From Halioglobus japonicus (GTDB lineage: Bacteria > Pseudomonadota > Gammaproteobacteria > Pseudomonadales > Halieaceae): a DNA stretch of 64,000 nt. A program made the translations under genes and the position numbers. The DNA is taken from NCBI RefSeq assembly GCF_001983995.1, contig NZ_CP019450.1, forward strand, positions 2,232,001-2,296,000, written 5' to 3'. The notes beneath the pieces are model-generated. The model was not told the origin of the DNA and made no database searches. It saw only the letters and a program-made list of their open reading frames with translations. Below are positions 32,133 to 55,466 of the stretch, in pieces. Positions within the stretch are counted from its first letter, which is position 1. Each line of letters begins with the position of its first letter.

Positions 32133-33752
32133 ATGAACAACAAGCAATACGACGCCATTGTGATCGGTGCTGGACACAACGGTCTGACGGCCGGGGCCTA
32201 TTTGGCCAAGTCCGGTCTGAAAACTCTGGTGGTCGAGAAAAACGACTATATCGGCGGCGCTGCCGTCAGCCGCGAGCTGCACGAGGGCTGGGTTTACTCC
32301 AACTGTTCCTACGTGTGCAGCCTGCTGCGCCAGTCTATTCACCGCGACCTGGATCTTACCAAGCACGGTTTGATGATTGTGCCCTATGCAGGCACCACCA
32401 ACTTTGCGCGCAACGGCGACTATGTAGCGGAATATCCGGACCCGTACATGCAGTACCGCGAGTATGCGCGCCACTCCCTGCGCGACGCGGATGCCATGCA
32501 CCGTTACGAAGCGGATCTGATGCGTTATGCCAAGCTCATTCGCCACTTCCTGTTACGTACACCCGCCGACCCCACATCGTTCAAGCCTCGGGATATCGGC
32601 GAACTGATCTTTATGGCGAAGAAGTTCGCCGATATGGGCGAAGAGCAGGTTTACGAATTCATCCGTTTTCTGACCATGAGTGCGGGTGATTTCCTCGATG
32701 AGTATTTCGAGAACAACCTGATCAAGACCATGCTGGCGACCAGCTCAATCATCGGCACTGCCTTGGGGGTTTACTCGCCTGGTACGGCCTACGTGCTGCT
32801 GCACCATGTCATGGGTGATGTGGATGGTGCAGTCGGTGCCTGGGGGCTTGCGCGCGGTGGTATGGGGGCGATATCCAATGCCATCGCGGGGGCGCTGCAG
32901 GAGCACGGTGGCGAAATTCGCACCGAGGCACCCGTCGAGCAGATTGTGGTCAAGAACGGGAAAGTGGTCGGCGTCGCCCTGGAGAGCGGCGAACAGATCA
33001 ATGCAAAAATTGTAGTGTCCAACCTCGACCCCAAGCGCACGTTCACCAAGATTATGGACGCCGGCGATATTCCCGCTGACCTGCGCAAGAAGGCTGAGAA
33101 TTTCAAGATTCGCGGCTCTTCGGGCAAGGTCAATATTGCGCTCACCGGCATGCCTGACTTTCCCTCGCTACCCGCGGGGCATCAATTGCGCCGCGGTTCG
33201 TTCCAGTTTTTAGATTCACTGGAACGGATGGAGCGAGCCTACGACGACTGGAAACACGGTCGCTGGTCCGACGATCCCTTTATCGAAATGACGCAGTCTT
33301 CAGTTTGGGACCCGACGCTCGCGGCACCCGGTCACTATTTTGTGTCCTGCTTTATCCAGTACTGCCCGGCGGAAGTCGAAGGGGGATGGACGCCCGAAAA
33401 ACGCGATGCGTTCGGCGAAACCGTGATTGACCAGATATCTCAGTATTCCCCTAATTTCCGCGACCTGATCGCGCACATGGAAGTTCGCACACCTTTTGAG
33501 ATCGAGAACGAAGTCGGTCTGACTGAGGGTAATATCTTCCAGGGTGAACTGACTATTGACCAACTCATGTTTAACCGCCCATTCCCTGGGTACTCACAGT
33601 ATCGGGGGCCGGTATCGGGTATGTATATGTGTGGCTCGGGTACTCACCCGGGCGGCGGTGTCTCATCGGCCTGTGGCGCCAACTCTGCGCGCGAGATTCT
33701 GCGCGACCTGAAACGCCCCAACGTGGTACCGGAGGACGATGTCGATGAGTAA
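32133..33752 (+). CDS. FAD-dependent oxidoreductase, PYROXD2/phytoene-desaturase-like (paralogue A, copy 1)
   Basis: 539 residues. N-terminal FAD Rossmann [30 protein letters not shown] (GxGxxG...E) and a C-terminal FAD contact YMCGSGTHPGGGVSSACG. Closely related to copy 2 at 48995-50611, sharing SRELHEGW-YSNCSYVCSLLR, FKIRGSSGK-NIAL and EVGLTEGNIFQGELT. PYROXD2/CrtI-like folds are amine or C-C bond dehydrogenases. First gene of an operon: 8-bp overlap with paralogue B, then GcvT. Function inferred: dehydrogenation of a (methylated) amine. Confidence 0.9.
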   Translation: MNNKQYDAIVIGAGHNGLTAGAYLAKSGLKTLVVEKNDYIGGAAVSRELHEGWVYSNCSYVCSLLRQSIHRDLDLTKHGLMIVPYAGTTNFARNGDYVAEYPDPYMQYREYARHSLRDADAMHRYEADLMRYAKLIRHFLLRTPADPTSFKPRDIGELIFMAKKFADMGEEQVYEFIRFLTMSAGDFLDEYFENNLIKTMLATSSIIGTALGVYSPGTAYVLLHHVMGDVDGAVGAWGLARGGMGAISNAIAGALQEHGGEIRTEAPVEQIVVKNGKVVGVALESGEQINAKIVVSNLDPKRTFTKIMDAGDIPADLRKKAENFKIRGSSGKVNIALTGMPDFPSLPAGHQLRRGSFQFLDSLERMERAYDDWKHGRWSDDPFIEMTQSSVWDPTLAAPGHYFVSCFIQYCPAEVEGGWTPEKRDAFGETVIDQISQYSPNFRDLIAHMEVRTPFEIENEVGLTEGNIFQGELTIDQLMFNRPFPGYSQYRGPVSGMYMCGSGTHPGGGVSSACGANSAREILRDLKRPNVVPEDDVDE

Positions 33753-35276
33753 AAACGCAATCATTATTGGTGGCGGTCACAACGGCCTGGCTTGCGCCGC
33801 CTATCTGGCTAAGAGCGGTCATAAGGTCACTGTACTCGAGGCCTCTGAACATCTCGGCGGGTTGGGTGCGACACGTGAGTTTGCGCCCGGCTTTCGCGCC
33901 TCCGTCGCACATACGCTGCCACAGCTTGATCGCAAGCTGGTAGCGGACCTCGACCTGGAAAAGCACGGCTTCGCACTGGCGGTAGACGATCTGCCCACGA
34001 TTGCACTGGGTCTGAACGGTGAGCACATCACCATTACAGCCTCCGGGCTGCAGGGAGCCTGTGATGAAGACACTGCCGCTTATCCGGAATACCAGCGCTT
34101 GCTGCGGCGTTTCGCTGGGGCTATTAAACCCTTTAACAGCAAGCGTCCACCGCGCATCGAGAGCGGCAGTAAAGGAGATTTGCTGACCCTTGGCCAGTTC
34201 GGCTGGAATCTTCGTACTCTCGGGAAGAGTGATATGCGCGAGATGATGCGGATGATTGCGCTGCCCGCACGTGATCTGGTGGACGAGTTCTTTGCCAGTC
34301 CCTTGCTCAAAGGTGCGTTGTCCTGGGATGCCAACGTGGGCAGTCGTCTGGCGCCGCGCTCACCCAACAACGCCATGCTTGCTTTGTTGCTGCGCATGAG
34401 TGGTGACCTCAGCGTGGGTCTGCCGCTGCCGCGCGGTGGTGTTGGCGGACTCACCGAGGCGCTGGCTGCAGCCGCCCGGGCGATGGGAGTCGAGTTTCGC
34501 ACGAGTGCTCGTGTCGAGCAGGTACTGATTGAGGAAGGGCGGGCAACCGGTGTTCGTCTGGCAGATGGTGAGCTGATTGCGGCCGATGTCGTGGTTTCCA
34601 ATGCAGACCCCAAAACCAGTTTTATCGATCTGTTGGGCGCTCGTCATCTGGATGTGCAGTTCACCCACCGCATCAATCGACTGCGAACGGGGGTATGGTC
34701 GCCAAGTTACATCTGGCACTGGACGCACTGCCTGAATTTACCGGCCTGGCTAACCCCATAGGGCGTCTGTTACTGACCCGAGACATGGACGCGATTGAGA
34801 ATGCATTCGATGCAGCCAAGTATGGCAGCTTTGCGCCGGAACTGCCTATGGAGGTAATTATTCCTTCTCTAGCAGACGATAGTTTGGCGCCTGCTGGCAA
34901 GCATGTGCTCTCGGCGCAGGTACAGTACGCGCCCTATGACCTCAAAGGTGGCTGGGATGCCAGGCGCGACGAATTCCTGGAGGCGGCGCTCAATAGCCTC
35001 GCTGCCTATGCGCCAAATATCCGCGACTGTATCAGTTCGGTGGAATTGCTAACTCCGGCTGATCTGGAGCAGCAGTTCAATGCGCGTGGAGGCCATTGGC
35101 ACCACGCTGAATACGCGATCGACAACTGGTGGGTGCAGCGCCCGACGTATGGCGCATCGCAGTATCAGAGCCCCGTGACCGGTTTCTACCTGTGCGGCGC
35201 GGGCAGCCATCCCGGTGGTGGCATCATGGGCCTGGCCGGTGCGAATGCCGCCCGTGCGGTAATGGAGGACAACTGA
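33745..35276 (+). CDS. FAD-dependent oxidoreductase, PYROXD2-like (paralogue B, copy 1), single-base frameshift
   Basis: GxGxxG-like IIGGGHNGLACAAYLAKSGHKVTVLEA N-terminus and C-terminal YLCGAGSHPGGGIMGLAGANAAR. The reading frame breaks at a five-G run (34689-34693); adding one G gives RLRTGGMVAKLHLALD and continues to the stop at 35276, about 511 residues. ATG 33745 lies 9 nt after GGAGG and overlaps the paralogue A stop by 8 bp, exactly as in copy 2. The distinctive block GHWHHAEYAIDNWWVQRP is shared with copy 2 ([18 protein letters not shown]). Likely works with A as a heteromeric oxidase/dehydrogenase (inference). Confidence 0.85.
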
Positions 35277-35277
35277 T

Positions 35278-36498
35278 ATGCCACTCAAAGCTGAACTGCA
35301 ACCCAGTAATGCTATTGACCATGTCCACACGGGCATATTGCAGACGCCGTTTCACAGTCGCACCAGTGCGCTGAATATTAATCAGGCATGGGCAAACTGG
35401 AATGGCTATGCTTCCGCCCTGAGTTTTCACGACGAGCACATCGAGTATTTCGCCACCCGCAATACGACGGCGGTCTTCGATGTATCGCCGATGCGCAAGT
35501 ACCGGTTTACCGGTGCTGATGCAGAAGCCATGCTCAATCGGATGGTCACACGCGATGTCAGTAAGCAGAAAGTCGACACCGTCGCCTACAACGTCTGGTG
35601 CACTGATGCCGGGCGAGTCATCGATGATGGTACATTGTTCCGCCTGGCCGATGACGACTTCATGTTGTGTTGCGCCGATCCATGCCTGGACTGGTTTCTG
35701 CTTGCGGCGGTGGGTTTTAATGACGTTAGTATCAGCGACATTTCCGATGACATCGCATCCCTGGCCCTGCAGGGGCCAACCTCCTGTGCGTTACTCAAAG
35801 CACTGGGGTTCGATGGCATAGACAACTGCAAGCCCTTCCAAATTGTTCGTTTTCCCTTTGGCAGTGGCGAGTTGATGATTTCACGCACTGGCTATACGGG
35901 TGACCTGGGTTACGAACTCTGGGTAGATCCTGCCGACGCTGTAGCGCTCTGGGACGCCCTGTTCAGCACCGGGGAGCTTTACGGTATCCAACCAATGGGT
36001 GAGGACAGTCTGGATATGGCTCGTCTGGAGGCCGGTTTTATCGCCCCGGATGTGGAATTCCACGGTGCACTTGGCACCGTTAATCGCCATCATGACCACA
36101 GTCCGTTTGAGCTGGGCCTGTCCTGGATCGTGAATTTCAAGAAAGGCCACTTCACCGGTCGCGAAGCACTGCTCAAGCAGAAGGAGTCTGGCGAGCATCG
36201 TCATTTGCTGCGTCTGGATATCGAGGGCAACAAGCCCGCGGAGCACAGTATTCTTTATGCTGGTGAGAACTGTGAAAAAGAAATTGGTTACGTGACCTCG
36301 GCCATGTGGTCGCCGGTGGTTAAGGCCAACATCGCCTACGGCCTGGTGGAGGCAAAGTACGTTAAAGGGCCGATCTGGGCAGAGATCTATCACCAGAAGG
36401 AATTGCGCTGGGTGCGCAAAGTGGCAAGATGTACCGTGGTGAACAGACCCTTCTGGGCACCGGACCGGGCCAAGGCCACACCGCCGCCTGACTGTTGA
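35278..36498 (+). CDS. GcvT-like folate-dependent aminomethyltransferase/demethylase (copy 1)
   Basis: 406 residues. GCV_T fold with TTAVFDVSPMRKYRFTGADAEAMLNRMVTRDV, ISRTGYTGDLGYELW and SLDMARLEAGFI, and a C-terminal domain with HLLRLDIEGNKPAE. No FAD domain is attached, unlike sarcosine or dimethylglycine dehydrogenases where GcvT is fused to a DAO domain. Starts 1 bp after the paralogue B stop with GGAGG upstream. Copy 2 is at 46268-47449. Proposed role: take a methylene unit from an iminium product of the FAD enzymes onto tetrahydrofolate. Confidence 0.9.
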   Translation: MPLKAELQPSNAIDHVHTGILQTPFHSRTSALNINQAWANWNGYASALSFHDEHIEYFATRNTTAVFDVSPMRKYRFTGADAEAMLNRMVTRDVSKQKVDTVAYNVWCTDAGRVIDDGTLFRLADDDFMLCCADPCLDWFLLAAVGFNDVSISDISDDIASLALQGPTSCALLKALGFDGIDNCKPFQIVRFPFGSGELMISRTGYTGDLGYELWVDPADAVALWDALFSTGELYGIQPMGEDSLDMARLEAGFIAPDVEFHGALGTVNRHHDHSPFELGLSWIVNFKKGHFTGREALLKQKESGEHRHLLRLDIEGNKPAEHSILYAGENCEKEIGYVTSAMWSPVVKANIAYGLVEAKYVKGPIWAEIYHQKELRWVRKVARCTVVNRPFWAPDRAKATPPPDC

Positions 36499-36542
36499 CG
36501 CATCGCTACGCCAGTTTCATAGAACAATAAGCAGGAGATACA

Positions 36543-37418
36543 TTGGAACAAGTCAGTCCGCTTCCGCCTCAGAGTATGCGACGAGATCCGCGTCAGTACA
36601 TCAAGCTTATTGTTTACGTGCTGCTATTGGTGAACTTTGGCAATTACATTGCCGAAGACATGATGATTGCATCGCATACGGTCGGGGAGGGAGCGACGTT
36701 CCTGGCATGGACCGCCGCCTTTACCACCTCGATCGACCTGGTGGCCTGGTTCGTCCTGTTGTTTCTGTTCGAACTGGAGACGTACTTGTTGTCCGACGAG
36801 GCCTTCACCAAGGCGCGCACACGGTTGATCCACGGTGTTCGCCTAGTGTGCTATTTGTTCCTGGCCCACGGTATTTTCTCCTATGGCAATACGGTGCTCG
36901 AGTTGCGCGATGTCGAACAGGTAGCGGGGGTAGACAATCTTTGCCACTGGGCTGACAGCGATGTGTCCTGGGGCAAGAACATCTACTACGAGGAGTTGGA
37001 CCAGAACAACTGCCAAACGCTCTCACAAGAGAGTGAGTTTTACCTGATCGAGAGAGGCACGGTGGTCACCGATGGCAGCGGCTTCGAGCTTGAGCGCCAA
37101 CTTACTTTTATAGACCTGGCGGAAGCCAGCACCTGGTTGTTGATCCTGCTGTTTATTGAACTCGGTGTGCGCCTGCAGGACCGGGGCGTGGCCGGCGGCC
37201 CACTGTTGCGCACGGTGCTTGGAATCAAGTTCTTTTTCTACACGATGCTATGGGGGGCTGCTGCATTCTGGCTGTATCACGGGCACTACCTCTATGCCTG
37301 GGACGAGGCCCTCTGGATCTTCGGTTTTGTGGCAATCGAGATGAATATGTCTGACTGGCGCAAGGAAATCAGAGCAGAGGAGGCCGAGTTGGCCTCAGCC
37401 TGCCCCGGGAAACCCTAG
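36543..37418 (+). CDS. Uncharacterised membrane protein at the end of triad 1
   Basis: 291 residues from TTG 36543 (GCAGGAGATACA upstream). About six hydrophobic segments in two groups (residues ~20-130 and ~190-270), separated by an exported-looking loop that carries two Cys (DNLCHWADSD and QNNCQTL). No domain recognised. 44 bp after GcvT on the same strand, with no counterpart after copy 2. Possible roles are substrate uptake or membrane electron transfer; neither has sequence proof. Its end overlaps the convergent aminotransferase by 4 bp. Confidence 0.72.
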   Translation: MEQVSPLPPQSMRRDPRQYIKLIVYVLLLVNFGNYIAEDMMIASHTVGEGATFLAWTAAFTTSIDLVAWFVLLFLFELETYLLSDEAFTKARTRLIHGVRLVCYLFLAHGIFSYGNTVLELRDVEQVAGVDNLCHWADSDVSWGKNIYYEELDQNNCQTLSQESEFYLIERGTVVTDGSGFELERQLTFIDLAEASTWLLILLFIELGVRLQDRGVAGGPLLRTVLGIKFFFYTMLWGAAAFWLYHGHYLYAWDEALWIFGFVAIEMNMSDWRKEIRAEEAELASACPGKP

Positions 37419-38818
37419 AAGCCGACATTACCGCTGGGCATGGGGGGGTAGTCGCCGATGGTGACACCGCCACTGCGCTGTACTGCCTCTATAGCTTCCT
37501 CCATGCGCGAAAGGCCTTCCAATAGCACGTCCTCAGCCATATTCAGCGCGGGGTACATGCGTACCTGTGGTTCGTTATCGCAGATCGCCCACAGCCCCCG
37601 CTTAAGCATTTCGTCGCGCACCGAGCGGGCGATATGGAAATCTTCGATATCCTCGCGACCCGCGCGAAATGATACGCCCAGCAGCAGGCCCAGGCCGCGC
37701 ACCTGGGAGACGATTTCGTAGCGGGACTCCCAGTCGGACATGCGTTGCATGGCAACGCCTGCCAGGTGCTGGGTGTGGGTGAGCACGGCATCGCGCTCGT
37801 AGATTTCGAGGGTTTTCAGTGCGGCGGCACAGCCGCCGGGCGTGCCGGCAAACGTGCTGCCAGCGGTGGCGCGCGGATTGTCCCCCAGTATTTCATCTCG
37901 GGCGGCCACCCCGGCGCAGGGTTCGATGCCCCCCGAAAGGTTCTTGCCGGCGACCAGGATATCGGGGACTACGTCGAAGTGCTCTACCGCCCACATCGTA
38001 CCGGTGCGACCCAATCCTGTGAGTACCTCGTCGGCAATTAGCAGCCAGTCAAACTTATCGCAGATGCGGCGCAGGCCCTGCATAAAGGCTTTACTGGGTA
38101 TCCAGTTGCCGCCTTCGGCGAGGCCGGGTTCTACGAGTATGGCCGCGATATTTTCGGCGGGTACCACGTACTCAGTCAGATGGGTTTCGATATACCACAG
38201 GCAGTACTCAGTATACTGGGCCTGGTCCATGCCGGCGGGAATTTCCTCGGAGTAGGGGAAGGGGGCCTTGAGTACACCGCCGGCCCAACCCTCCATGTAT
38301 AGATTGTTGTCACTGTTATAGGCGCTCACCATCTTGGTGCCCAGGCCCTCGCCGTGGAAGCAGGAGGTGAAGCTGACAATGTAGCGCCGCTGGGTGTGGC
38401 ACAGTGCCAGGTGGATGGCGGACTCGGCCGCCTCTGTGCCGGATACCTCGAAGCTGAAGCGGGGAAGGGAGCCTGAGGGCATAATGCTGGCGAGTCTCTC
38501 CGCCAGCGGAATCCGCAGGGGGTGCTCCCACTGGAAGCCATACTGGCGCTGCGCCTCGTGCACGGCCTCCAGTATCTCCGGGTGACAATTACCCAGAGGG
38601 TTGGTGGCCCAGCCGTTCTGAAAATCGATGTATTGATTGCCGTCCAGGTCCCACACGTAGTCGCCCTCGGCGCGGCCGACGATAAACTGAGCCGGTGGCA
38701 CATAACCCTTGCTGGCGCTTTTCTGGCTCGCTCTGGTGTAGTGAATTCCATTGCGCAGATGGGGCAGGCCGCGTTGCAGTAGGGCCCTCGATGCGTCGCC
38801 CGGCAGATCGTAACTCAT
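37415..38818 (-). CDS. Class III PLP aminotransferase
   Basis: 467 residues. Class III features: GTEAAESAIHLAL, FTSCFHGEGLGTKM, LIADEVLTGLGRTG, PLP lysine in ILVAGKNLSGG, and STFAGTPGGCAAAL. Related to glutamate-1-semialdehyde aminomutase and omega-aminotransferases. Start overlaps the purU stop by 4 bp (ATGA), so the two are translationally coupled. It probably removes an amino group after the oxidase steps; substrate unknown. Confidence 0.88.
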   Translation of the reverse strand: MSYDLPGDASRALLQRGLPHLRNGIHYTRASQKSASKGYVPPAQFIVGRAEGDYVWDLDGNQYIDFQNGWATNPLGNCHPEILEAVHEAQRQYGFQWEHPLRIPLAERLASIMPSGSLPRFSFEVSGTEAAESAIHLALCHTQRRYIVSFTSCFHGEGLGTKMVSAYNSDNNLYMEGWAGGVLKAPFPYSEEIPAGMDQAQYTEYCLWYIETHLTEYVVPAENIAAILVEPGLAEGGNWIPSKAFMQGLRRICDKFDWLLIADEVLTGLGRTGTMWAVEHFDVVPDILVAGKNLSGGIEPCAGVAARDEILGDNPRATAGSTFAGTPGGCAAALKTLEIYERDAVLTHTQHLAGVAMQRMSDWESRYEIVSQVRGLGLLLGVSFRAGREDIEDFHIARSVRDEMLKRGLWAICDNEPQVRMYPALNMAEDVLLEGLSRMEEAIEAVQRSGGVTIGDYPPMPSGNVGF

Positions 38819-39684
38819 GAGAACACCACAGTCTTGTTGCCACGCACAATCACCCGGTCTTCCAGATGGTAGCGCAGTCCGCGGGAAAGTACGGATTGTT
38901 CGACGTCGCGGCCAAGGCGCACCATATCGTCTTTACTGCAGCTGTGATTCACCCGGATGACATCCTGTTCAATGATCGGCCCTTCGTCCAGGTCCTCTGT
39001 TACATAGTGACAGGTGGCGCCAATCAGTTTAACGCCGCGATCGTAGGCCTTCTGGTAAGGATTGGCGCCGATAAACGAAGGCAGAAAACTGTGATGGATG
39101 TTAATCAATCGCCCGACATACCCTTCGCACAGGGCGGGCGGGATAATCTGCATATAGCGGGCCAGCACGATGGTCTCTCCCCGATGCCGCTCGACAATTC
39201 TTTCGACCTCGGCAAATGCCGCCGCCTTGTCCTCCTTCGGTACTGGCACATGATGAAACGGAATGCCGTGCCATTCCACCATACTGCGCAAGTTTTCGTG
39301 ATTAGAGATCACGCAGGGAATATCGCAGGCCAGATCGCCACTTTGCCAGCGATGGAGAATATCTGACAGGCAGTGCGAAGCGTGGCTCGCCATAATCACC
39401 ACGCGTTCGCGGCGACTGGAGGGGCGCAACTGCCACTCCATGGCAAACTCAGTGGCCAGTGGTGCAAACTCATCAGAAAATGCCTCCTCGTTTACCGAAA
39501 GTCCGGCGGCGCTGATAACGTTGCGCATGTAAAACCAGTTCTGCTCGAGGTCGGTGTGGTGGTTGGATTCCACCAGCGAACCCCCGCGCTCGGCAAGAAA
39601 CTGGGAGACAGCCGCAACCACGCCTACCCGATCGGGGCATGAAATTACCAGGGTGTAGCTGTCGGGTCTGTTGTCAGTTGTCAT
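38815..39684 (-). CDS. purU: Formyltetrahydrofolate deformylase
   Basis: 289 residues. N-terminal ACT domain (YTLVISCPDRVGVVAAVSQFLAE), then the formyltransferase fold: RMVEWHGIPFHHVP-type region, INIHHSFLPSFIGANPYQKA, GATCHYVTEDLDEGPIIEQ with the catalytic Asn/His/Asp set of the PurU family. It hydrolyses 10-formyl-THF to formate and THF. A purU inside an amine-oxidation cluster, between an aminotransferase (4-bp overlap) and a PuuB-like oxidase (25 bp gap), fits disposal of C1 units generated by the GcvT-like proteins. TTG 39690 is two codons upstream; ATG 39684 preferred. Confidence 0.93.
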   Translation of the reverse strand: MTTDNRPDSYTLVISCPDRVGVVAAVSQFLAERGGSLVESNHHTDLEQNWFYMRNVISAAGLSVNEEAFSDEFAPLATEFAMEWQLRPSSRRERVVIMASHASHCLSDILHRWQSGDLACDIPCVISNHENLRSMVEWHGIPFHHVPVPKEDKAAAFAEVERIVERHRGETIVLARYMQIIPPALCEGYVGRLINIHHSFLPSFIGANPYQKAYDRGVKLIGATCHYVTEDLDEGPIIEQDVIRVNHSCSKDDMVRLGRDVEQSVLSRGLRYHLEDRVIVRGNKTVVFS

Positions 39685-39709
39685 AGTCAAAGTTCCGCTA
39701 GAGGGGTAG

Positions 39710-40990: not shown

Positions 40991-41007
40991 TGCTCACCTC
41001 TGGAACT

Positions 41008-41041: not shown

Positions 41042-41079
41042 ATGCCACTTATCCGTACCTCAGCCAAGGACAGAGTGTC

Positions 41080-42186: not shown

Positions 42187-42188
42187 AT

Positions 42189-43553
42189 TTACCCCAGTAG
42201 TTCTTCCTGTGCTTTTAGCAGAGCCTTGCGCAGCGCGCTCACCAGGTCGTCCACTTGCTCGCGGGTCAGAATGAGCGGGGGCGACATGATGCAGACGTTA
42301 ATCAGTGGGCGCACCAGTAATCCGAACTCACGACAGTGGCTGTCGATCAGGTCGCCCAGGTGGTAATCCTGCTCTAGAAGGGCTTCTCCCTCGGCGTCGC
42401 TTCCCAGGCTCATTTCTACTGCGGCCATCATGCCCATGCCCCGCACGTCGGCGACCAGAGGTAGGTCCATCAGGGTGCGGAGCTGGGCCTGGAAATACGG
42501 TCCCACATCGCGAACATGTTCCAGCAGCTGTTCCCGTTCAATGATATCCCAGCTCTCGAGTGCTGCGGCGCAGGATACCGGGTTGGCCGACCAGGTGAAG
42601 CCATTGCTATAGCAGTTGCCCTCGGCGTTGTCGCCGCTGATTTCTGCCATGAAGGCGTCGGATACGGCATAGCCGCCGAGTGGCAGGTAGCCAGAGGTGA
42701 CACCCTTGGCAAAGGTGATGATGTCGGGCACCACGTCGAATAGGGTTTCGGAGGCAAACCAGTGCCCCAGTCTGCCGAACGCGGTGACTACTTCATCGGC
42801 AATATAGGTGATCCCGTGGCGCTTCACGACTTCCCAGCAGCGCCGGTTGTACCCTTTGGGTGGTACCAGTACGCCCCCTGATCCCAGTATCGGCTCGGCG
42901 ATAAAGCACATGATGTTCTCAGGGCCCAGCTCGGCAATCTTGGCTTCCAGTTCAGCGATCAGAAAATCACAGAACGCCTCCTCGGAGGCAAATTCCTGTT
43001 CTTGATAAAAGGCGCAGGGTGCGGTGAGGAAGTGCACCAGGTCGACGGCAGTGTCCATGGCGGTCTTGTCACGCTCTTTGCCGGTGACGGATGCGGATAG
43101 ATAAGTACTGCCGTGGTAACCCTTGTCGCGACACAGGATGTGTTTGCGCTGCGGCTCGCCGCGAATGTTTCGCGCCAGTTGGCAGAGGCGCAGGGCGGAA
43201 TCCACGGCGGTAGAGCCGCCGGTGGTAAAGAACACTCGATTGAGATCGCCGGGGGTTTTCTCGGCGATGCGTTGGGCGAGTTCGGCCTCGAGGGGATTGA
43301 TGGTTGAAAACGCAGTGCTGTAGCCGAGTTCGACAATCTGGGTGGCTACTCTGTCGGCAATCTCTTGCCGGCCGTAGCCAGTCTGCATGCACCACATACC
43401 GCCCGGGCCGTCGATCATGCGCTGGCCATTGTCGTCATAAATATAGACGCCTTCGCCGCGGACGATCACCGGGGTGCTGTCGTCTTCGCCCAGATTGGGC
43501 AGGTCCGACCACGGGTGGAGCAAGTGCTTGTTAAATGTATCGCGTACAGACAT
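42189..43553 (-). CDS. Class III omega-aminotransferase
   Basis: 454 residues from ATG 43553. Motifs: FFTTGGSTAVDSALRL, RDKGYHGSTYLSAS, YIADEVVTAFGRLGHWFA, PLP lysine in ITFAKGVTSGYLPLGG, and NGFTWSANPVSCAAAL. It resembles putrescine/beta-alanine-pyruvate-type aminotransferases. The start is 5 bp after the Rieske oxygenase stop, giving a Rieske-aminotransferase operon. A second, different class III enzyme is at 37415. A longer start at 43592 would overlap the Rieske gene and is less likely. Confidence 0.9.
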   Translation of the reverse strand: MSVRDTFNKHLLHPWSDLPNLGEDDSTPVIVRGEGVYIYDDNGQRMIDGPGGMWCMQTGYGRQEIADRVATQIVELGYSTAFSTINPLEAELAQRIAEKTPGDLNRVFFTTGGSTAVDSALRLCQLARNIRGEPQRKHILCRDKGYHGSTYLSASVTGKERDKTAMDTAVDLVHFLTAPCAFYQEQEFASEEAFCDFLIAELEAKIAELGPENIMCFIAEPILGSGGVLVPPKGYNRRCWEVVKRHGITYIADEVVTAFGRLGHWFASETLFDVVPDIITFAKGVTSGYLPLGGYAVSDAFMAEISGDNAEGNCYSNGFTWSANPVSCAAALESWDIIEREQLLEHVRDVGPYFQAQLRTLMDLPLVADVRGMGMMAAVEMSLGSDAEGEALLEQDYHLGDLIDSHCREFGLLVRPLINVCIMSPPLILTREQVDDLVSALRKALLKAQEELLG

Positions 43554-43558
43554 GGTTT

Positions 43559-44814
43559 TTACGCCGCCTCGGAAAGGTTTTTGAGATACCACTCGACGAA
43601 GTGCTGAAGTGTTTCTTCGTACTCCGGGTGGTAGGGGCCGGGCTCGAAAAAGCGTGAATTGGCGCCTTCGGAGTTGCGGTTGATGATGTATTCATCTTCC
43701 ATTGTGGTGTGATGCCACAGCCACGTGACTTTGTCTCGCTCGTAGTCTGTTCCTTCTACTGCGTCTCCGCGCACGAACCAGACTACTTCCATGTCTGTTG
43801 AGGTCAGGCTGCGAGGAATGAAGCGGTATAAGACGCAGTGATCCGGGTAGTTCAGCATGAACGTGAGGGGCCCCAGCTGGAAGTCACCTGCGCCGCCGTC
43901 GTAGCCCTGGATGTTGCCCATCAGGGGTGCTACAGGTTGGCCGTCCTCGCTACCCGTCAAGTAGCCGTCGAACAGGCCGTAGCGGGATGTGTAAGCACAG
44001 CAGCCGAAGCCTTTGGCGTCATTAAAGATGGCATAGTGTTCTTTGCCCATGCCCGGTATGCCGGTGACTTCTTCGGTGCGGTCAAGCATGGCCTGCACAA
44101 CGTCTTCGACCTTGCAGTACAGATCTTTCAGAGTGTGCATGCGCGCGTAGGCGCGATGCGATGTGGCGCAGTGGTAGCACTCCAGATAGTTCTCCAGAAC
44201 AAACTTCCAGTTGGCGTCAACCTTGTAGGTCTGTTTGTGGGCGATCTTGGCGTTCTCAAGATCATAGGCCCCCAGCGGCGCCTGAAGTGGCTCTAATGCG
44301 GGCAGGAAGTCTTCGGCCTCTGGGTCGCAATTGATGAAGATCATGCCCATGTGCACCTGGACCCGGGCCTGCTTCAGTCCGTGGTTGGAGGTGTCGAAGC
44401 CCTCCAGCATTTCCATATCGCGGGCGGCTTTGAGTGAGCCGTCGGTGCGGTAAACCCAGCCGTGGTATGGGCAGACAAACGTCTTGCGTTTGCCGCTGGC
44501 CTCCTCGCAGACGCGAGCGCCGCGGTGGCGGCAGACGTTCATCAGGCAGCGCACCTGGCCATCGTCGTCGCGCACGATAATGAGTGAATCCTCGCCGATC
44601 TCGAACAGCAGATAGTCGCCGGAGTCCGGGATCTCGGAAATGTGCCCGCGTAAAGCCAGCTGCGGAAGATCAGTTGATCGAGTTCGCGCTGGTACACCAG
44701 GTGTGAGCGGTAAAAGTAGGGGTCCATGGCCCGCCCGTGGTTGGCGATTGATTCCTCGAGCTTCTGCGCCATTTTGGTGGCGGAGTCATCGACGTCGGTG
44801 GCGATGAATTTCAT
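43559..44814 (-). CDS. Rieske non-heme iron oxygenase alpha subunit, quaternary-ammonium type (single-base frameshift)
   Basis: Rieske cluster motif CRHRGARVCEEASGKRKTFVCPYHGW (C-x-H ... C-x-x-H), then ENYLECYHCATSH with the mononuclear-iron His pair and the Glu typical of quaternary-ammonium oxygenases such as CntA or GbcA. The frame breaks at CCC 44645-44647. Adding one G on the coding strand joins FRSWLYAGHISEIPDSGDYLLFEIG to the rest, giving about 418 residues from ATG 44814. Known relatives hydroxylate an N-methyl group of betaine, carnitine or choline, which releases formaldehyde. No reductase gene is adjacent. Tandem operator-like sites lie 18-51 bp upstream. Confidence 0.85.
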
Positions 44815-44831
44815 TGCGGCTTACCCTGAAT

Positions 44832-44865
44832 TAAATGTCCGTTCAGGATACTAAATGGTCATTTA
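44832..44865. promoter_or_regulatory. Tandem operator-like dyads upstream of the Rieske gene
   Basis: TAAATGTCCGTTCA (44832-44845) and TAAATGGTCATTTA (44852-44865), both matching TRAATGNNCRTTYA fully, start-to-start 20 bp, the same spacing as at 41008-41041. They fill most of the 65-bp gap between the GS-like gene and the Rieske gene, so they mark a separate promoter for the Rieske-aminotransferase operon. Confidence 0.6.
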
Positions 44866-44879
44866 AATTGAAAGCATTG

Positions 44880-46259
44880 CTACAGCGCGCGCAGATACCA
44901 CTCGTAGTCCTGTGTGGGGATTGTCGTGTGATACATCGCTTCCTCTGCGCGCCGCATACTGCTGTAGCCACGGCAGAATTGTTGCCCAAGGTAGGCGGGC
45001 ATGATTGAGGATTGGCTGAATTTTTCAATTGCGGCGAACCAGCGGGTAGGAATGTGTACTTCCCTGGCGCAGTAGTCGCTGAGTTGTTCCACCATGGGGC
45101 CTGGGTCAGCCTGCGTTTCCATACCGTGCAGCATGCCTGCCAGTACGGCAGCAACGACGAGGTAGGGGTTAGCATCCGCACCGGCGACCCGGTGCTCGAA
45201 GCGCCGGTTCTCCGGTCCTGACACTGGGATGCGCACAGCGACTTCACGGTGATTGTAGCCCCAGCGTGGCTCCAGTGGCACATAAGCCCCTTCGACAAAG
45301 CGCCGATAGGAGTTCGCATTGGGGGCGAATAGCAGGGTGTTCTCTGCCATGGTGGCTAGAACGCCGCCCATTGCGTGGCGCATCTTGTCAGATATGCCGG
45401 GTTCGGTGCTGCCTGCACCGGCGAACAGATTGTTGCCATCTTTGTCGTACAGGCTGGCATGCAGGTGCATGCCACTGCCAGGGTGTTCGGCGAAGGGCTT
45501 GGCCATAAACGTAGCTGCCAGGCCGTGGCGGTGAGCGACACCTTTGACCAGCCGACGCAGTAGCAGCGTGTCGTCACAGACTTTCATAATATCTGAGCCG
45601 TGACGGGTGTTGACCTCCCACTGGCCCGGTGAAAATTCAGAGTGCAGTGTGGTCAGGGCGATCCCCTGAAGCTCGCAGGCCGTGCGCAGGTCGTCGAGAA
45701 AGCCATCCAATTGCCATAGGTCATTGGCTTCTACGTATTGTGTGCCGTGCTGTTCGAGGCCAGTGCCTGGTATGCGGCCGAGCAGGGGGCGTGGCCTGTT
45801 GTCATCGCCAGGTGCTATCAGGTAGAACTCCAGTTCGGTGGCGACAACGGGCGACAGTCCATGCTCGCTGAACTTGTTGACAACACGCTGCAGTGCCTGC
45901 CTTGATTCTACCCAGCAGGGTGATCCATCGAGCTCGACGTGTGAGGTCAGTACCTGACCCGTGGGTGAGTCCAGCCAGTTGATCCTCGCCAGCGAGCCGG
46001 CGATAGGGCTGAGGCGGACGTCGCGTTCGCCTTCCATGTCGTCGGCGTCGATATCCACGCTGTACTCACCCATAGGGGTGATGACGGGTAGGGTAATCGG
46101 ACTTTTCTGGTTGCCCTTGAACAGGCCTTCCATTTCATCGCGATGCAGCCGCTTGCAGCGGAGAATACCGTTCAGGTCCGGCATCATGACCTCAAACATT
46201 TTCAGGTCGGGGTTTGCCGCAGTAAATGCCTGCCATTCTACAAGGGTGGCCTGTGTCAT
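44880..46259 (-). CDS. Glutamine synthetase family protein, PuuA (gamma-glutamylamine synthetase)-like
   Basis: 459 residues, similar to PuuA (about 470). GS features: ATELEFYLIAPGDD, HSEFSPGQWEVN, GSGMHLHASLYDKDGNNLF, NRRFEHRVAGADANPYL. These enzymes ATP-dependently ligate glutamate to an amine, and in puu pathways the product is oxidised by PuuB, present here at 39710. Start ATG 46259 has AGGACG, 8 bp after the GcvT copy 2 stop, so it is the last gene of the triad-2 operon. It may activate or protect the substrate's primary amine. Confidence 0.88.
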   Translation of the reverse strand: MTQATLVEWQAFTAANPDLKMFEVMMPDLNGILRCKRLHRDEMEGLFKGNQKSPITLPVITPMGEYSVDIDADDMEGERDVRLSPIAGSLARINWLDSPTGQVLTSHVELDGSPCWVESRQALQRVVNKFSEHGLSPVVATELEFYLIAPGDDNRPRPLLGRIPGTGLEQHGTQYVEANDLWQLDGFLDDLRTACELQGIALTTLHSEFSPGQWEVNTRHGSDIMKVCDDTLLLRRLVKGVAHRHGLAATFMAKPFAEHPGSGMHLHASLYDKDGNNLFAGAGSTEPGISDKMRHAMGGVLATMAENTLLFAPNANSYRRFVEGAYVPLEPRWGYNHREVAVRIPVSGPENRRFEHRVAGADANPYLVVAAVLAGMLHGMETQADPGPMVEQLSDYCAREVHIPTRWFAAIEKFSQSSIMPAYLGQQFCRGYSSMRRAEEAMYHTTIPTQDYEWYLRAL

Positions 46260-46267
46260 GGTTCGTC

Positions 46268-47449
46268 CTAAAAGGGTGCGGGAGGCGTAAGGCGCCGGCG
46301 CTCTGGGTTGAAGGGCACTTTGTCCAGTACCCGGCAAGGCGCCAGCTCACGGGTCCAATGCAGTTCACGCTGAAAATAGATCTCCGCAGTATAGCGCTCA
46401 CCGACCTGGCCAAACGGGGCTTCCAGTTGGGCGAAGGCGATGTTGGTCTTGGCGGTGGGGCACCAGGCAGCGGAGGTTACGGTACCGATCACCCGTTTGC
46501 CGTGAAAAATAAATGAGTTGTGAGCAGGTTTGTTGCCCTCGACATCGAGTACTGCGAAACGATAGCGAGAACCCGCTTGTTGTTCCTCTAGCAGTGCTCT
46601 GCGGCCGTTGAATACGGGTTTGTTGAAATCCACCAACCAACCCAGGCCGAGTTCGAAGGGGGATCGTGAGCGGCCTGCCCGTACCGCATTCAGGGCGGGC
46701 ACGAAGTCCACGCCCGCCTGAATAAATCCTGCTTCAATTCGCGCCAGGTCCAGCGCGTCGGTACCAATGGGCTTGATCAGGTTGTAGTCGGTCGATTTGA
46801 ACAGCGCGTCCCATAGCGGCTCTGCGCCCGCGGGCTCAATCCACAGTTCATAGCCGAGGTCACCTGTAAAGCCGGTTCTACTGACCATTAGGGGCAGTCC
46901 GGCAAAATCAAATGACATCATGCCAAACGGTTTTAGCTGGTCGAGCCCAGTCAGACCCATGTTGAGCAGGTTGGCGCAGGATGTCGGGCCCTGAACCGCG
47001 AGGGCTGCGACCTGGGCGGTCTCATCTTCAATGCTGACGTCAAAGCCCAGTGCTGAGCAGAGCAGCCAGTCCAGCCCACGGGCCCATGCGCATAGTCGGA
47101 AGTCGTTCTCGTCCAGCCGAAATATCGTGCCGTCGTCCAGTACCTGCCCCTGTTCATCACACCAGACTGTGTAGCCGACACGGCCCACCTTGATCTTGCT
47201 CACATCGCGTGTGACCAGCCGATTGAGATATGCCTCAGCATCCGGGCCGCTAATCCGGTACTTGTTCATGGGGGACAGGTCAAACACCCCGGTCGTGCTG
47301 CGAATCGCGAAGTACTCGAGCTCTACGTCGCTGTAGGCGTTAGGGGTGGTATATCCCTTCCAATCTCCCCAGCAGTTGATTTCACAAGCCGCAGCAACCC
47401 GGCTGTGGAACGGTGTGTGCAACATCATGGTGTCGTCGCTGCTCATCAT
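46268..47449 (-). CDS. GcvT-like folate-dependent aminomethyltransferase/demethylase (copy 2)
   Basis: 393 residues. Same architecture as copy 1: STTGVFDLSPMNKYRISGPDAEAYLNRLVTRDV, VSRTGFTGDLGYELWIEP, ALDLARIEAGFI, and C-terminal FAVLDVEGNKPAHNS. ATG 47449 overlaps the paralogue B stop by 4 bp (ATGA). The copies differ at many positions, so the duplication is old rather than an assembly artefact. Third gene of the triad-2 operon, before the PuuA-like gene. Confidence 0.9.
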   Translation of the reverse strand: MMSSDDTMMLHTPFHSRVAAACEINCWGDWKGYTTPNAYSDVELEYFAIRSTTGVFDLSPMNKYRISGPDAEAYLNRLVTRDVSKIKVGRVGYTVWCDEQGQVLDDGTIFRLDENDFRLCAWARGLDWLLCSALGFDVSIEDETAQVAALAVQGPTSCANLLNMGLTGLDQLKPFGMMSFDFAGLPLMVSRTGFTGDLGYELWIEPAGAEPLWDALFKSTDYNLIKPIGTDALDLARIEAGFIQAGVDFVPALNAVRAGRSRSPFELGLGWLVDFNKPVFNGRRALLEEQQAGSRYRFAVLDVEGNKPAHNSFIFHGKRVIGTVTSAAWCPTAKTNIAFAQLEAPFGQVGERYTAEIYFQRELHWTRELAPCRVLDKVPFNPERRRLTPPAPF

Positions 47450-49002
47450 TTCTCTCCCTGCCTGAGGACCTGCCGCGCGGCGTTGCGCCCGGCCAGGCCC
47501 ATGAGTCCGCCGCCGGGGTGAGTGCCCGCTCCACACAGGAACAGGCCGTCCACCTGGGTGGCATTCTGGCTTGCTCCGGGGAAGGGTCTGTTCATCAGTA
47601 CTTGGTCCAGGCTCATCTCGCCGTGATGCCAGTGACCGCCAGCCATGCCGAAGCGCTGTTCCAGATCCTGCGGTGTGAGCAGTTCTGTGGCGGTGACCAG
47701 ATCGCGGATGCCGGGGGCATAACGTTCCAGTAGTGCCAGCAAGCGATCGATAAAGGGCTGTCGATGTTGGTCCCAGCCGCCGTCGGGCGAGTATGGCGCG
47801 AATTGCACGATCGCTGAGAGCACATGCTGGCCAGTTGGGGCCAGCCCGGGATCATTGTGCGTGGGAATGCTTATGTCCATAACGGGTTCGGCGGAATATT
47901 CGTCGTACTTGATAGCGTTAAAGGCGCGCTCGACATAATCGAGGTTGGGGGCGATAACCAGTCGTTGACCCAGCTGCTCGCCAGTGAGGCCAGTGAAGTG
48001 GGGTTCAGCGCTCAGGGCAAGATGCAGCTTGGCGGTGCCACTGCCATGGCGAATCTGGGTTACACGTCTCGCGGTGCCCGCCTCGATACGCGGGTAGCCC
48101 ACCAGGTCGCGGAAGGTGGTAACAGGGTCGATATTGGATATGACCGTCGATGCGCGGATACTCTCGCCGGAGTCGAGGCGCACACCTACCGCTTTGTCGG
48201 CTTTCATGTCGATGGAGTCGACCCGGGAGGCAAGGCGAATGTCTACGCCGGCGGCGCGGGCACTGTTGGCCATGGCCACGCCCAGCTCCCCCATGCCGCC
48301 CTCAATCTGGGTGACACCCGTGAAACCAAACTCGGCTGAAAGTTGACGATATAGGTACGCGAAAACACTGCCAGGAGTACGCGGGCCGCTGCGTGAACCG
48401 AGAACGGCATCCATGCTAAGAAGAGCTTGCAGTGCTTCGCTGGAGAAAGTTTCCTGCATCAGGTCATACATATTCATTAGCACGATGCGCATGAACTCGC
48501 TCATATCTTCTTTGCCGAGTAGCTTGAGGCCAAGGCCCAGCTTGAGCAGCGAGAGGCGATCTATCAGGTTGGCCTCAGAGAGTCGGGGAGAGCGTTCAGC
48601 AAACAGCTTGGCAAGCAGGCGTAGGTAGCGTTTGTTGCGGGTGTTAAACACCTCGAGTGCGGCCTGGTCATCGGCGCTCGCGCCGCTGACCTGGTTCCCC
48701 GACAGCACCAGATGCGAACCGCTCTCCGAAAGCGAGATGCTCGCCAGGTCGCGAGCGGCCCATTTCAGGCCATGGGCCTCCAGGGCCATCTCTTTGGCTA
48801 CGGTGGGATGCAGTTGGTACAACCACTGTGCACAATCCGATACGGTAAAGCCAGGTGCGAACTCCCGGGTAGAGGCGCAGCCTCCTGGTTGATCGGAGGC
48901 CTCCAGTACCAGTACTTTGCGGCCTGCTTTCGCCAGGTGGGTCGCGCACACCAGGCCATTGTGCCCTGCGCCAATAACAATGGCGTCATAGTGATTAGTC
49001 AT
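47446..49002 (-). CDS. FAD-dependent oxidoreductase, PYROXD2-like (paralogue B, copy 2)
   Basis: 518 residues from ATG 49002, which overlaps the paralogue A stop by 8 bp as in copy 1. FAD motif [30 protein letters not shown], internal [15 protein letters not shown], and C-terminal [26 protein letters not shown]. Intact, unlike copy 1, and supplies the reference to repair that frame ([19 protein letters not shown] against RINRLRTGGMVAKLHLAL). An upstream in-frame start at 49071 would overlap paralogue A by 77 bp and is less likely. Confidence 0.9.
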
Positions 49003-50611
49003 CGGAATACCCCGCTGGCACAATGTTGGGTCGTCGCAGGTCGCGCAGGATTTCCCGCGCTGCGTTGGCACCTGGAGCTGCCATCACGCCACCGCCCGGG
49101 TGCGTGGCGGAGCCGCACATGTAAAGACCGCCCAGCGGGCCTCGGTATTGTCCGTAGCCGGGGAAGGGGCGATTGAACAGTAGCTGGTCAAAGGTCAGTT
49201 CTCCCTGGAATATGTTGCCTTCGGTGAGGCCGACCTCAGCCTCGATTTCTTTCGGGGTGCGAGTCTCGCAATGTAGGATGAGGTCCTTGAAGTCGGGGCT
49301 GTACTGTGCGATCTGGTCAATGACGGATTTTTCAAAGCCGGCCTTGTCTTCCGCGGTCCATTCCCTGCCTTTAATCAGCGGCGGGGCGTACTGCACGAAC
49401 ACACTCATCATGTGCTTGCCTGGCGGTGCCATGGTCGGATCGGTCTGGGTTGGAATTAGCATGTCCAGGTAAGGATCTTGAGACCAGGTGCCATCCTTCC
49501 AGTCGTCGTAGGCGCGCTCCAGTCGCTGCAGATTGTCTGTGAAGTGCATATCTCCAAGCATCAGTACGCTGTCTTTTTCGATACCGTGGAACGTGGGAAG
49601 GCCATCGAGGGCGATATTCAGTTTCCCCGACGAGCCGCGAATCTTGAAGTTCTCAGCCTTATTGACGACGTCAACCGGGAGGTCGCCGGGACGCATGATA
49701 TCCAGGTAGGTGCGCTTGGGGTCCAGGGAAGACACGATAACATCTGCATCGTATTCGTCGCCATTGCGCAGGGCGACGCCTACTGCTTTGCCGCCGCGGA
49801 CTTTGACGTGACCGACATCTGCATCGCAAATGATCTCGCCGCCGAATGATTTGAAGGCGCTTGCCAGAGCATCGGATACAGCGCCCATGCCGCCGCGGGC
49901 AAAGCCCCAGGAGCCCACATTGCCATCCACATCGCCCATATAATGGTGCAGCAAGACATAGGCGGTGCCCGGCGAAAATACGCCAAGCGCTGTGCCGATG
50001 ACGCCGGATCCTGCGTAATGCGCGCGTATCACGTCAGATTCGAAGTATTCGCTAAGGTAGTCTCCGACACTCTTGGTCCAAAAGCTGACAGTGTCGGCCA
50101 GGCCTTCTTCACCCATTTCCAAAAATGCGCCGGCGAACTCGGCCAGGTCGCGCAGGTCGCGCAGCTTGAGCGATGTTGGATCGGGCGGCCGTTTGAGCAG
50201 AAATGGCCGGATCAGACGGGTCTGCTTCTGGGTGTCGGCGGAATAACGCTCGTAGGCATTGGCATCGCGTATCGAGTGGCGCGACATTTCTCGGTAGCGA
50301 CGATTGCGGTCATAGTAGTTACCGTAGTGGTCGCCATTCTGCATGAATGTAATGCCTCCTCCGTAGGGCACAACCTGCAGCCCGTGGCGCGGTAGCTCCA
50401 GGTCGCGCACCAACTCGGGGCGCAGGAGGCTGCAGACATAGGAACAGTTGGAGTACTTCCAGCCTTCGTGCAGTTCACGGCTTACCGTAGCGCCGCCGAT
50501 GTAGGGATTGCGTTCCAGTACAGCCACCTTGAGACCGGATTTGGCAAGGTAGGCAGCATTGGCCAGGCCGTTGTGACCTGCGCCGATGATAATAGCGTCA
50601 AATTTACTCAC
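48995..50611 (-). CDS. FAD-dependent oxidoreductase, PYROXD2-like (paralogue A, copy 2)
   Basis: 538 residues from GTG 50611 with GGAGAG upstream. FAD motif [30 protein letters not shown] and C-terminal YMCGSATHPGGGVMAAPGANAARE. Nearly the same length as copy 1 (539) and collinear with it. First gene of the operon A-B-GcvT-PuuA-like. Divergent from a TetR regulator across a perfect 18-bp palindrome, so likely controlled by it. Confidence 0.9.
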   Translation of the reverse strand: MSKFDAIIIGAGHNGLANAAYLAKSGLKVAVLERNPYIGGATVSRELHEGWKYSNCSYVCSLLRPELVRDLELPRHGLQVVPYGGGITFMQNGDHYGNYYDRNRRYREMSRHSIRDANAYERYSADTQKQTRLIRPFLLKRPPDPTSLKLRDLRDLAEFAGAFLEMGEEGLADTVSFWTKSVGDYLSEYFESDVIRAHYAGSGVIGTALGVFSPGTAYVLLHHYMGDVDGNVGSWGFARGGMGAVSDALASAFKSFGGEIICDADVGHVKVRGGKAVGVALRNGDEYDADVIVSSLDPKRTYLDIMRPGDLPVDVVNKAENFKIRGSSGKLNIALDGLPTFHGIEKDSVLMLGDMHFTDNLQRLERAYDDWKDGTWSQDPYLDMLIPTQTDPTMAPPGKHMMSVFVQYAPPLIKGREWTAEDKAGFEKSVIDQIAQYSPDFKDLILHCETRTPKEIEAEVGLTEGNIFQGELTFDQLLFNRPFPGYGQYRGPLGGLYMCGSATHPGGGVMAAPGANAAREILRDLRRPNIVPAGYSDD

Positions 50612-55448: not shown

Positions 55449-55466
55449 CCACCGAAGTACTGATTT

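Follow-up and report, generated by a model that had tools for sequence, protein, structure and literature searches.

Conserved triads of two FAD proteins and a free-standing GcvT as a candidate N-demethylation system in alpha- and gammaproteobacteria

Introduction

The dimethylglycine and sarcosine dehydrogenases, dimethylglycine oxidase and heterotetrameric sarcosine oxidase all combine a flavoprotein with a GcvT unit, and in the fused forms the flavin domain is of the DAO type. TMAO demethylase (Tdm) likewise carries a GcvT part, at its C-terminal end. Two further points of reference are the quaternary ammonium Rieske enzymes GbcA, Stc2 and CntA, and putrescine utilisation by PotFGHI, PuuA/PuuB and polyamine:pyruvate transaminase. 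Here we analyse a 64,000-nucleotide stretch of the Halioglobus japonicus genome (the window), for which an earlier note had proposed a new N-demethylation system built from two mirrored triads of FAD protein A, FAD protein B and stand-alone GcvT.

Results

Two convergent triads in the window

The ORF list of the window bears out the two oppositely oriented operons of identical A-B-GcvT order that the earlier note described, with triad 1 (A1-B1-GcvT1) at 32133-36498 (+) and triad 2 (A2-B2-GcvT2) convergent to it at 50611-46268 (-). The 8-bp overlap between A and B, also claimed there, is kept in both copies, given that A1 ends at 33752 and the B1 ATG lies at 33745, and that A2 ends at 48995 and the B2 ATG lies at 49002. 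The copies have evolved apart as suggested, with identities of 60% for A, 50% for GcvT and, using the first ORF of B1 only, 39% for B.

32133..33752, +, A1, CrtI/CrtO-like FAD protein (ORF with FAD motif; NCBIfam CrtO 256 bits, cut-off 1000; 60% identity to A2)
33739..35276, +, B1, second FAD protein, frameshift-split near 34689-34693 (two ORFs, both matching B3)
35278..36498, +, GcvT1, free-standing (PF01571 192 bits; DD motif kept)
46268..47449, -, GcvT2, free-standing (PF01571 197 bits; ORF listed to 47536, probable start by eye)
47446..49002, -, B2, FAD protein (ORF listed to 49071)
48995..50611, -, A2, FAD protein (ORF; predicted fold)

The label "PYROXD2-like" for A1 is that of the earlier note. 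A third triad, in the order B-A-GcvT, is found in the same genome at C1:3505600-3509960, 1.2 Mb from the window triads; PurU is adjacent in this third cluster as well, and an FDH-like protein is encoded there. B1 consists of two overlapping ORFs in different frames (33739-34761 and 34695-35276), with the frame break near a G run at 34689-34693, and a frame change likewise splits the Rieske gene x7, putting the N-terminal piece (44641-44814) in a different frame from the rest. Both genes are unsplit in relatives, B1 specifically in HTCC2148 (G007) and in a Haliea MAG contig (G022).

Profile searches recovered the genes reported between the triads, namely two aminotransferases, a Rieske oxygenase, PurU, a DAO/PuuB-like protein and a glutamine-synthetase-like ligase, which are listed here with other genes of the window:

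36543..37418, +, x1, membrane protein-like by eye (without Pfam match; relatives adjoin triad 3 in several genomes)
37415..38818, -, AT-x2, class III aminotransferase (PF00202)
38815..39690, -, PurU, formyl-THF deformylase (TIGR00655 352.6 bits, above the cut-off of 285.95)
39710..40990, -, DAO-fold oxidase (PF01266 257 bits; best NCBIfam match L-pipecolate oxidase AmaA, 188.6, cut-off 600)
41080..42186, +, x5, BetI-type TetR fused to GNAT (PF13977 and PF00583)
42189..43592, -, AT-x6, class III aminotransferase near polyamine:pyruvate transaminases (NF005447 630.8 bits, above the cut-off of 618)
43559..44814, -, x7, Rieske oxygenase, frameshift-split near 44641-44653 (profile and PDB matches)
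44880..46259, -, glutamine-synthetase-like ligase (PF00120 308 bits; best NCBIfam match gamma-glutamylputrescine synthetase, 199 bits, cut-off 650; ORF listed 44880-46337, probable start by eye)
50739..51452, +, r1, BetI-type TetR regulator, divergent from A2 (PF13977 70.4 bits)
59172..60347, +, r6, Rieske oxygenase downstream of the second operator site (GbcA-like, 191 bits, cut-off 670)

In the PDB, AT-x6 matched the unnamed aminotransferase 3i5t best, followed by several others that include putrescine and polyamine:pyruvate transaminases.

Folds of A and B and identity of GcvT

We know of no enzyme with known activity in the A/B family. The predicted models of A2 and B2 both had their best match in the carotenoid desaturase 4rep and not in an amine oxidase; the fold comparison was repeated with VIA for A2 only. 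A DAO-type FAD domain was not recovered, as PF01266 matched A1 only at residues 7-59 and the first ORF of B1 best at residues 7-56, and FAD and GcvT parts did not occur in one chain, being encoded by separate ORFs in the window. These results agree with the suggestion that a FAD family other than DAO is paired here with free GcvT. Scores of GcvT1 and GcvT2 fell below the NCBIfam GcvT cut-offs (219.2/216 against 300, and 161.4 and 163.6 against 235.85), and the TMAO demethylase profile matched the two window proteins through its C-terminal part only (264.4 and 261.8 bits, cut-off 1100). Among solved structures, the one closest in sequence to GcvT2 is the GcvT part of TMAO demethylase. The DD motif, which is catalytic in T proteins, aligned with theirs and was invariant in 19 aligned GcvTs (D134, D135).

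Conservation of the triad

Of 79 loci from alpha- and gammaproteobacteria, 72 carried a complete triad and 77 had A next to B; in six of the seven loci without a complete triad, a contig end interrupts the set. These counts are based on tblastn because the gene caller missed genes, such as GcvT1 in G022 and A in L093; ORFs of stand-alone length in the 79 loci numbered 68 for A, 61 for B and 54 for GcvT. Two complete convergent triads were also recovered in G022 and in HTCC2148, the latter having three triads on one contig. The A/B overlap, measured at 75 of 77 junctions, was 8 bp in 29 and 14 bp in 17, with the rest scattered and some values depending on alternative starts. Over 51 triads, pairwise identities were correlated between A and B (0.87) and A and GcvT (0.92; Mantel p 0.001 each), and between B and GcvT (0.91). 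In the A tree, for which the B rows L067_10 and L094_6 were included beside the outgroup WIN_B2 and L106_9 was left out, these three B sequences grouped together outside the A rows.

We then compared 54 full-length triad loci with 40 random 20-kb regions. GcvT accompanied A-B in 54/54 loci and in 0/40 random regions, which places the triad far from chance, and we conclude that A-B-GcvT is a conserved unit. Rieske genes (33/54 against 0/40), polyamine-type binding proteins (SBPs; 36/54 against 0/40), the aminotransferase AT6 (35/54 against 1/40) and TetR regulators (44/54 against 0/40) were also frequent, and genes of the transporter, ligase, oxidase and transaminase types are found repeatedly near triads. 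The earlier note would have given up its reading had most triads lacked Rieske, PurU and amine genes alike; instead, 53 of 54 loci had a gene for a Rieske protein, aminotransferase, SBP, glutamine-synthetase-like ligase, DAO or PurU, or several of these, compared to 3 of 40 controls. The association it drew with Rieske and amine genes thus stands, whereas PurU (2/54 against 1/40) is ruled out as a conserved partner. Aldehyde dehydrogenase reached 10/54 against 2/40 (p 0.065), and neither the TonB receptor (7/54 against 1/40) nor the TPR-sulfotransferase (6/54 against 2/40) was significant as a general partner, both recurring in close relatives.

Distant A-like proteins (36-41% identity) were rejected as members of the same system, with B or GcvT in 0 of 19 within about 1.5 kb on each side. 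Rieske genes were seen near three of these 19 proteins (L214, L221 and L222).

Rieske and transporter proteins

The best PDB matches of the Rieske x7 fragment were 3n0q, 3vca (stachydrine demethylase), 4qup and carnitine monooxygenase, with biphenyl dioxygenase behind. GbcA was the best NCBIfam match of x7, r6 and three relatives' Rieske proteins, all below its cut-off of 670 (x7 fragment 220, r6 191, relatives 286, 177.8 and 125.1). The reductase domain FAD_binding_6 had no match in the window and two elsewhere in the genome. Relatives' SBPs scored below the PotF cut-off of 636, at 328.6 and 404.1 for two of PotF type and 51.3 for one of the other type. At the binding-site positions, the three diamine acids are kept in 14/14 PotF-type SBPs and absent in 30/30 of the rhizobial/roseobacter type, in which an aromatic box is kept. 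The two SBP types point to different ligands, so that one substrate for all systems is unlikely.

A shared operator

An operator with the core TGAATGNNCATTCA, beside a BetI-like regulator, is new in this analysis and adds evidence for a regulon beyond the earlier note.

50685..50702, unstranded, operator AATGAATGATCATTCATT (exact 18-mer)
59050..59067, unstranded, second operator site (one mismatch to the 18-mer, core exact)

The 18-mer had two matches at up to three mismatches in the window against 0.02 expected, and the core occurs exactly only twice in the genome, before A2 and before the second Rieske gene; at two mismatches the core was not enriched in the window (6 against 2.86 expected). 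Allowing at most one mismatch, we found 59 sites in 44 of 79 loci and none in the other 35, compared to one site in 40 control regions. Twelve shuffled palindromes gave 0-17 sites each in the same loci, none of them exact, against 18 exact sites for the real operator. Sites of the real operator preceded A in 25 loci, AT6 in 16, the permease in 14 and Rieske in 7. The BetI-type C-terminal domain PF13977 was found in r1 (70.4 bits) and x5 (59.6 bits; cut-off 27), and x5, when scanned, fell below the BetI equivalog cut-offs (100.4 against 201.3 and 96.2 against 118). Placement of one operator before triad, Rieske, aminotransferase and transporter genes points to a single regulon, predicted from sequence, for an N-methylated cationic amine.

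Discussion

We consider it probable that these genes are regulated together and serve to break down an N-methylated cationic amine, the Rieske oxygenase being the enzyme that would act first. A PotF-type ABC system, which adjoins triads in relatives and not in the window, may import the amine, and the Rieske enzyme would then remove the first methyl group from the quaternary nitrogen. A and B, with their carotenoid-desaturase/amine-oxidase fold and overlapping genes, would form a complex that acts on the tertiary or secondary amine, oxidising an N-methyl group to give an iminium; free GcvT would then load this carbon onto tetrahydrofolate, yielding 5,10-methylene-THF. Paralogous triads might serve successive methylation states or related substrates. 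The freed amine could be handled by an aminotransferase, or by the glutamine-synthetase-like ligase with the DAO-type oxidase, and C1 units disposed of by PurU, together with the FDH-like protein at triad 3. A BetI-type repressor binding TGAATGNNCATTCA would control the set.

It is also conceivable that GcvT serves the Rieske enzyme, catching formaldehyde released by Rieske demethylation, and that A and B oxidise some other bond, for example in the carbon backbone of the amine. The operon or operator that Rieske shares with the triad suits this, as does the closeness of GcvT2 to the corresponding part of TMAO demethylase, whose reaction releases formaldehyde. However, GcvT stays with A-B in all 54 loci, whereas Rieske is absent from the examined stretch in 21 of them (though possibly elsewhere in the genome), and a Shinella plasmid carries A-like and GcvT genes, accompanied by carnitine-dehydrogenase-like and BKACE-type proteins, with neither B nor a recognisable Rieske gene in the part examined; we regard this explanation as unlikely. 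A distinctly unlikely one is that the system offers a second route, beside that of the DAO-GcvT dehydrogenases, for breaking down known small betaines (glycine betaine, dimethylglycine, sarcosine). The regulators of BetI type and the resemblance of the Rieske proteins to GbcA speak for it, but such a route would have no need of polyamine-type transporters or aminotransferases, the best of five scanned Rieske proteins reached 286 bits against the GbcA cut-off of 670, and the genome already encodes, near triad 3, an 820-aa protein in whose sequence a FAD motif is seen at the N-terminal end and a GcvT part at the C-terminal end. Finally, strict gene pairing, co-divergence, the shared operator and retention of the DD motif in GcvT all argue against a desaturase-like A+B in an amine cluster with GcvT as a scavenging paralogue and no demethylation, which we hold to be very improbable even though the closest predicted fold is a carotenoid desaturase and PurU is not enriched.

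Beyond the N-methyl amine regulon that we favour, we put forward tentatively, as possible rather than probable, that the triad forms a THF-coupled N-demethylase of a new class. In it, a heteromeric flavoenzyme of carotenoid-desaturase/amine-oxidase fold would pass methylene groups to free GcvT and, with a Rieske oxygenase and with paralogous triads serving successive methyl groups, would make up an unrecognised N-methylated (poly)amine pathway in rhizobia, roseobacters, SAR11 and marine gammaproteobacteria. If true, a family of flavoproteins known from carotenoid chemistry would have been recruited to N-demethylation, with C1 units passing directly to folate. Bacteria of soils, of plant-associated habitats and of the open ocean carry the set, which would then indicate an overlooked turnover route for methylated nitrogen compounds, and the operator and gene set make the proposal testable.

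Of the described systems, putrescine utilisation uses the same types of transporter, ligase, oxidase and transaminase as are found near the triads, but the SBPs and the ligase here fall below equivalog cut-offs and SBP sites are changed; to our knowledge the triad, Rieske and GcvT have no part in putrescine use. The Rieske enzymes GbcA, Stc2 and CntA are approached by x7 through its matches to the carnitine enzyme and 3vca and its best NCBIfam match to GbcA, although all the Rieske proteins scanned, those of relatives included, lie far below the GbcA cut-off and the window has no FAD_binding_6 match. The GcvT part of Tdm is nearest to GcvT2, but GcvT2 matches only residues 392-754 of its 793, lacks the N-terminal part of Tdm and neighbours flavoproteins. 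The dimethylglycine and sarcosine enzymes, which are among the solved relatives of GcvT2, likewise join a flavoprotein to a GcvT unit; whereas their DAO-GcvT fusions carry a DAO-type flavin domain, here two CrtI/amine-oxidase-fold proteins stand in its place and GcvT has a gene of its own.

Two triads and their surroundings

The earlier note had described two sets of an FAD protein (A), a second FAD protein (B) and a free-standing GcvT in opposite orientation; open reading frames and family matches bear out this arrangement, and the 8 bp overlap at the A/B junction holds for triad 1 and triad 2 alike.

Triad genes in the window (coordinates, strand, description)
32133-33752, +, A1, FAD protein
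33739-35276, +, B1, FAD protein, two ORFs
35278-36498, +, GcvT1, free-standing GcvT
48995-50611, -, A2, FAD protein
to 49002, -, B2, FAD protein
to 47449, -, GcvT2, free-standing GcvT

The triads are separated by the aminotransferase AT-x2, PurU, a DAO-type oxidase, a BetI-type TetR-GNAT, the aminotransferase AT-x6, a Rieske protein and a glutamine-synthetase-like ligase. Frameshifts interrupt B1 (34689-34693) and Rieske x7 (44641-44653), and an arginase-family gene (60355-61292, at 60843-60852; N-terminal piece judged by eye) and a sulfatase-like gene (24007-25459) are apparently split. With several breaks inside 64 kb, errors in the assembly are as plausible a cause as decay. Positions 51335-58971 hold a TonB receptor, TPR-sulfotransferases, a protein without a Pfam match and an Asp/Asn-hydroxylase-like protein, a set that also adjoins the triads of several relatives and the third cluster.

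Predicted models of A2 and B2 (mean pLDDT 87.5 and 87.3) best match the carotenoid desaturase 4rep, followed by superfamily members including NicA2, monoamine oxidases and putrescine oxidase; the modelled fold would thus allow amine oxidation, which it does not prove. GcvT keeps the DD motif when aligned with T proteins. The best solved matches of the Rieske fragment are 3n0q, 3vca (which we take to be stachydrine demethylase), 4qup and carnitine monooxygenase, and AT-x6 is closest to an unnamed aminotransferase, then to a group including putrescine and polyamine:pyruvate transaminases.

Conservation of the triad and its neighbours

A matched at E ≤ 1e-120 in 18 of 58 near genomes, own included. 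A scan of an 84,980-species collection confirmed at least 572 relatives, the best 80 of which gave 79 loci, a set biased to the closest; in these, A lies next to B at 77 and all three genes are present at 72; of the seven incomplete loci, six are truncated by contig ends and one (L091) is a true miss. Evenly sampling 398 Pseudomonadota genomes, with the own genome among them and three candidates scored in each, gave an A of ≥59% identity in 11, own included; B adjoined it in all ten others. Near distant A relatives (36-41% identity), neither B nor GcvT was found within ~1.5 kb on each side (0/19).

Neighbour genes in 54 of the 79 loci (each at least 19.5 kb) versus 40 random 20-kb control regions from seven contigs of six genomes; three pairs of controls overlap, so that they are not fully independent, and controls are gammaproteobacterial whereas many triad loci are alphaproteobacterial
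A: 54/54, 1/40
B: 54/54, 0/40
GcvT: 54/54, 0/40
Rieske: 33/54, 0/40
Transporter binding protein (SBP): 36/54, 0/40
Permease: 36/54, 0/40
ABC ATPase: 39/54, 3/40
AT-x6 relatives (AT6): 35/54, 1/40
AT-x2 relatives (AT2): 14/54, 0/40
TetR: 44/54, 0/40
GS-like ligase: 11/54, 1/40
DAO: 10/54, 0/40
ACS: 12/54, 0/40
Methyltransferase: 14/54, 0/40
ALDH: 10/54, 2/40
PurU: 2/54, 1/40
TonB receptor (TBDT): 7/54, 1/40
TPR-sulfotransferase: 6/54, 2/40

Since 21 of the 54 loci have GcvT without a Rieske gene in the stretch covered, gene content argues that GcvT goes with A and B. In rhizobial triads a small conserved protein (77-99 aa), possibly a small subunit, directly follows GcvT (L112:14438-14686 and 13 other loci). 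Many alphaproteobacterial loci carry a SAM methyltransferase between TetR and A (for example L132:19714-20496), odd for a catabolic cluster, with weak likeness to arsenite and sarcosine/dimethylglycine methyltransferases.

Both convergent triads are also complete in a Haliea MAG contig and in HTCC2148, which has a third triad on the same contig, and L094 and L139 likewise hold two triads within one locus. Triad 3 of the own genome (C1:3505600-3509960, order B-A-GcvT) neighbours an FDH-like molybdoprotein, PurU, a GS-like ligase and a DAO; in other genomes its relatives retain that order, with many of the same neighbours. Two distant A-like proteins and an FAD-GcvT fusion also lie near triad 3 (C1:3470000-3526000). 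In the A tree, A1 groups with A3 and A2 stands apart, with a fourth class visible. A1 shares 82-88% identity with its orthologues in three other genomes and 60% with A2, so that, judged by divergence, the paralogues are old. For 51 triads, the pairwise identities of the three proteins A, B and GcvT track one another, with correlations of 0.87-0.92. Aminotransferase and transporter genes also accompany complete triads in a genome labelled Candidatus Pelagibacterales (SAR11) and in another marine alphaproteobacterium (L134, L140).

A shared operator

Upstream of A2, beside the divergent BetI-type TetR, lies the perfect palindrome AATGAATGATCATTCATT, which at up to 3 mismatches occurs twice in the window versus 0.02 expected. 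Exact copies of its core TGAATGNNCATTCA number only two in the genome, at window positions 50687-50700 and 59052-59065, the latter upstream of the oxygenase gene Rieske r6. One mismatch adds two places outside the window, versus one for a reversed control pattern, and two mismatches gave no excess within the window.

Among the 79 loci (best 80 of at least 572 relatives), 44 carry the site when up to one mismatch is allowed, 59 sites in all, versus one site in the 40 controls; 18 sites, in 17 loci, are exact. When these loci were scanned with twelve palindromes whose half-sites had been shuffled, each gave between 0 and 17 sites, none exact. With four plasmid loci included, 63 of 65 sites lie at most 350 bp upstream of a panel-gene match, and in six rhizobial loci (L102, L118, L124, L126, L144, L147) sites mark three promoters, those of the triad, of the aminotransferase/transporter genes and of the Rieske gene. 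Shared operator sites at these promoters thus tie the genes into one predicted regulon better than proximity could, and we infer that the BetI-type TetR binds the operator. An operator-like site also precedes a TonB receptor in L065.

Candidate ligands and proposed scheme

Fourteen PotF-type SBPs beside triads keep acids at positions 39, 247 and 278 and lack Glu at 185, with Asp in seven and Ser/Thr in seven; we take 39, 185, 247 and 278 to be the binding-site numbers. Thirty rhizobial/roseobacter-type SBPs, after two short ones were dropped, lack these three acids and keep Trp37, Tyr40, Trp244 and Trp276, an aromatic box of the kind that a methylated ammonium ligand would call for. Because the two types differ in site residues, the transported ligand probably differs between lineages.

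A Shinella plasmid encodes an A-like protein (40%) and GcvT beside a BKACE-type protein, an acetate-CoA ligase family protein and a carnitine 3-dehydrogenase-like protein (468 bits versus a cut-off of 592), by gene context an independent link of A-type flavoprotein and GcvT to a quaternary amine. This S. sumterensis locus (L148), with a single A-like protein and no B in a carnitine-type gene group, may be related to the triad but simpler.

TMAO demethylase yields formaldehyde. The betaine route begins with removal of one methyl group by a Rieske oxygenase and continues with flavoenzymes, some carrying GcvT, that take off the next. The overall scheme proposed here is modelled on that route: for quaternary substrates the Rieske step would come first, because flavin amine dehydrogenases require a free lone pair on nitrogen, and the flavoenzyme step would follow. 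We know of no earlier description of a system of A, B and free GcvT, and call it new only in that sense; in contrast to the betaine route, the flavin part here belongs to a different family and is paired, as A and B.
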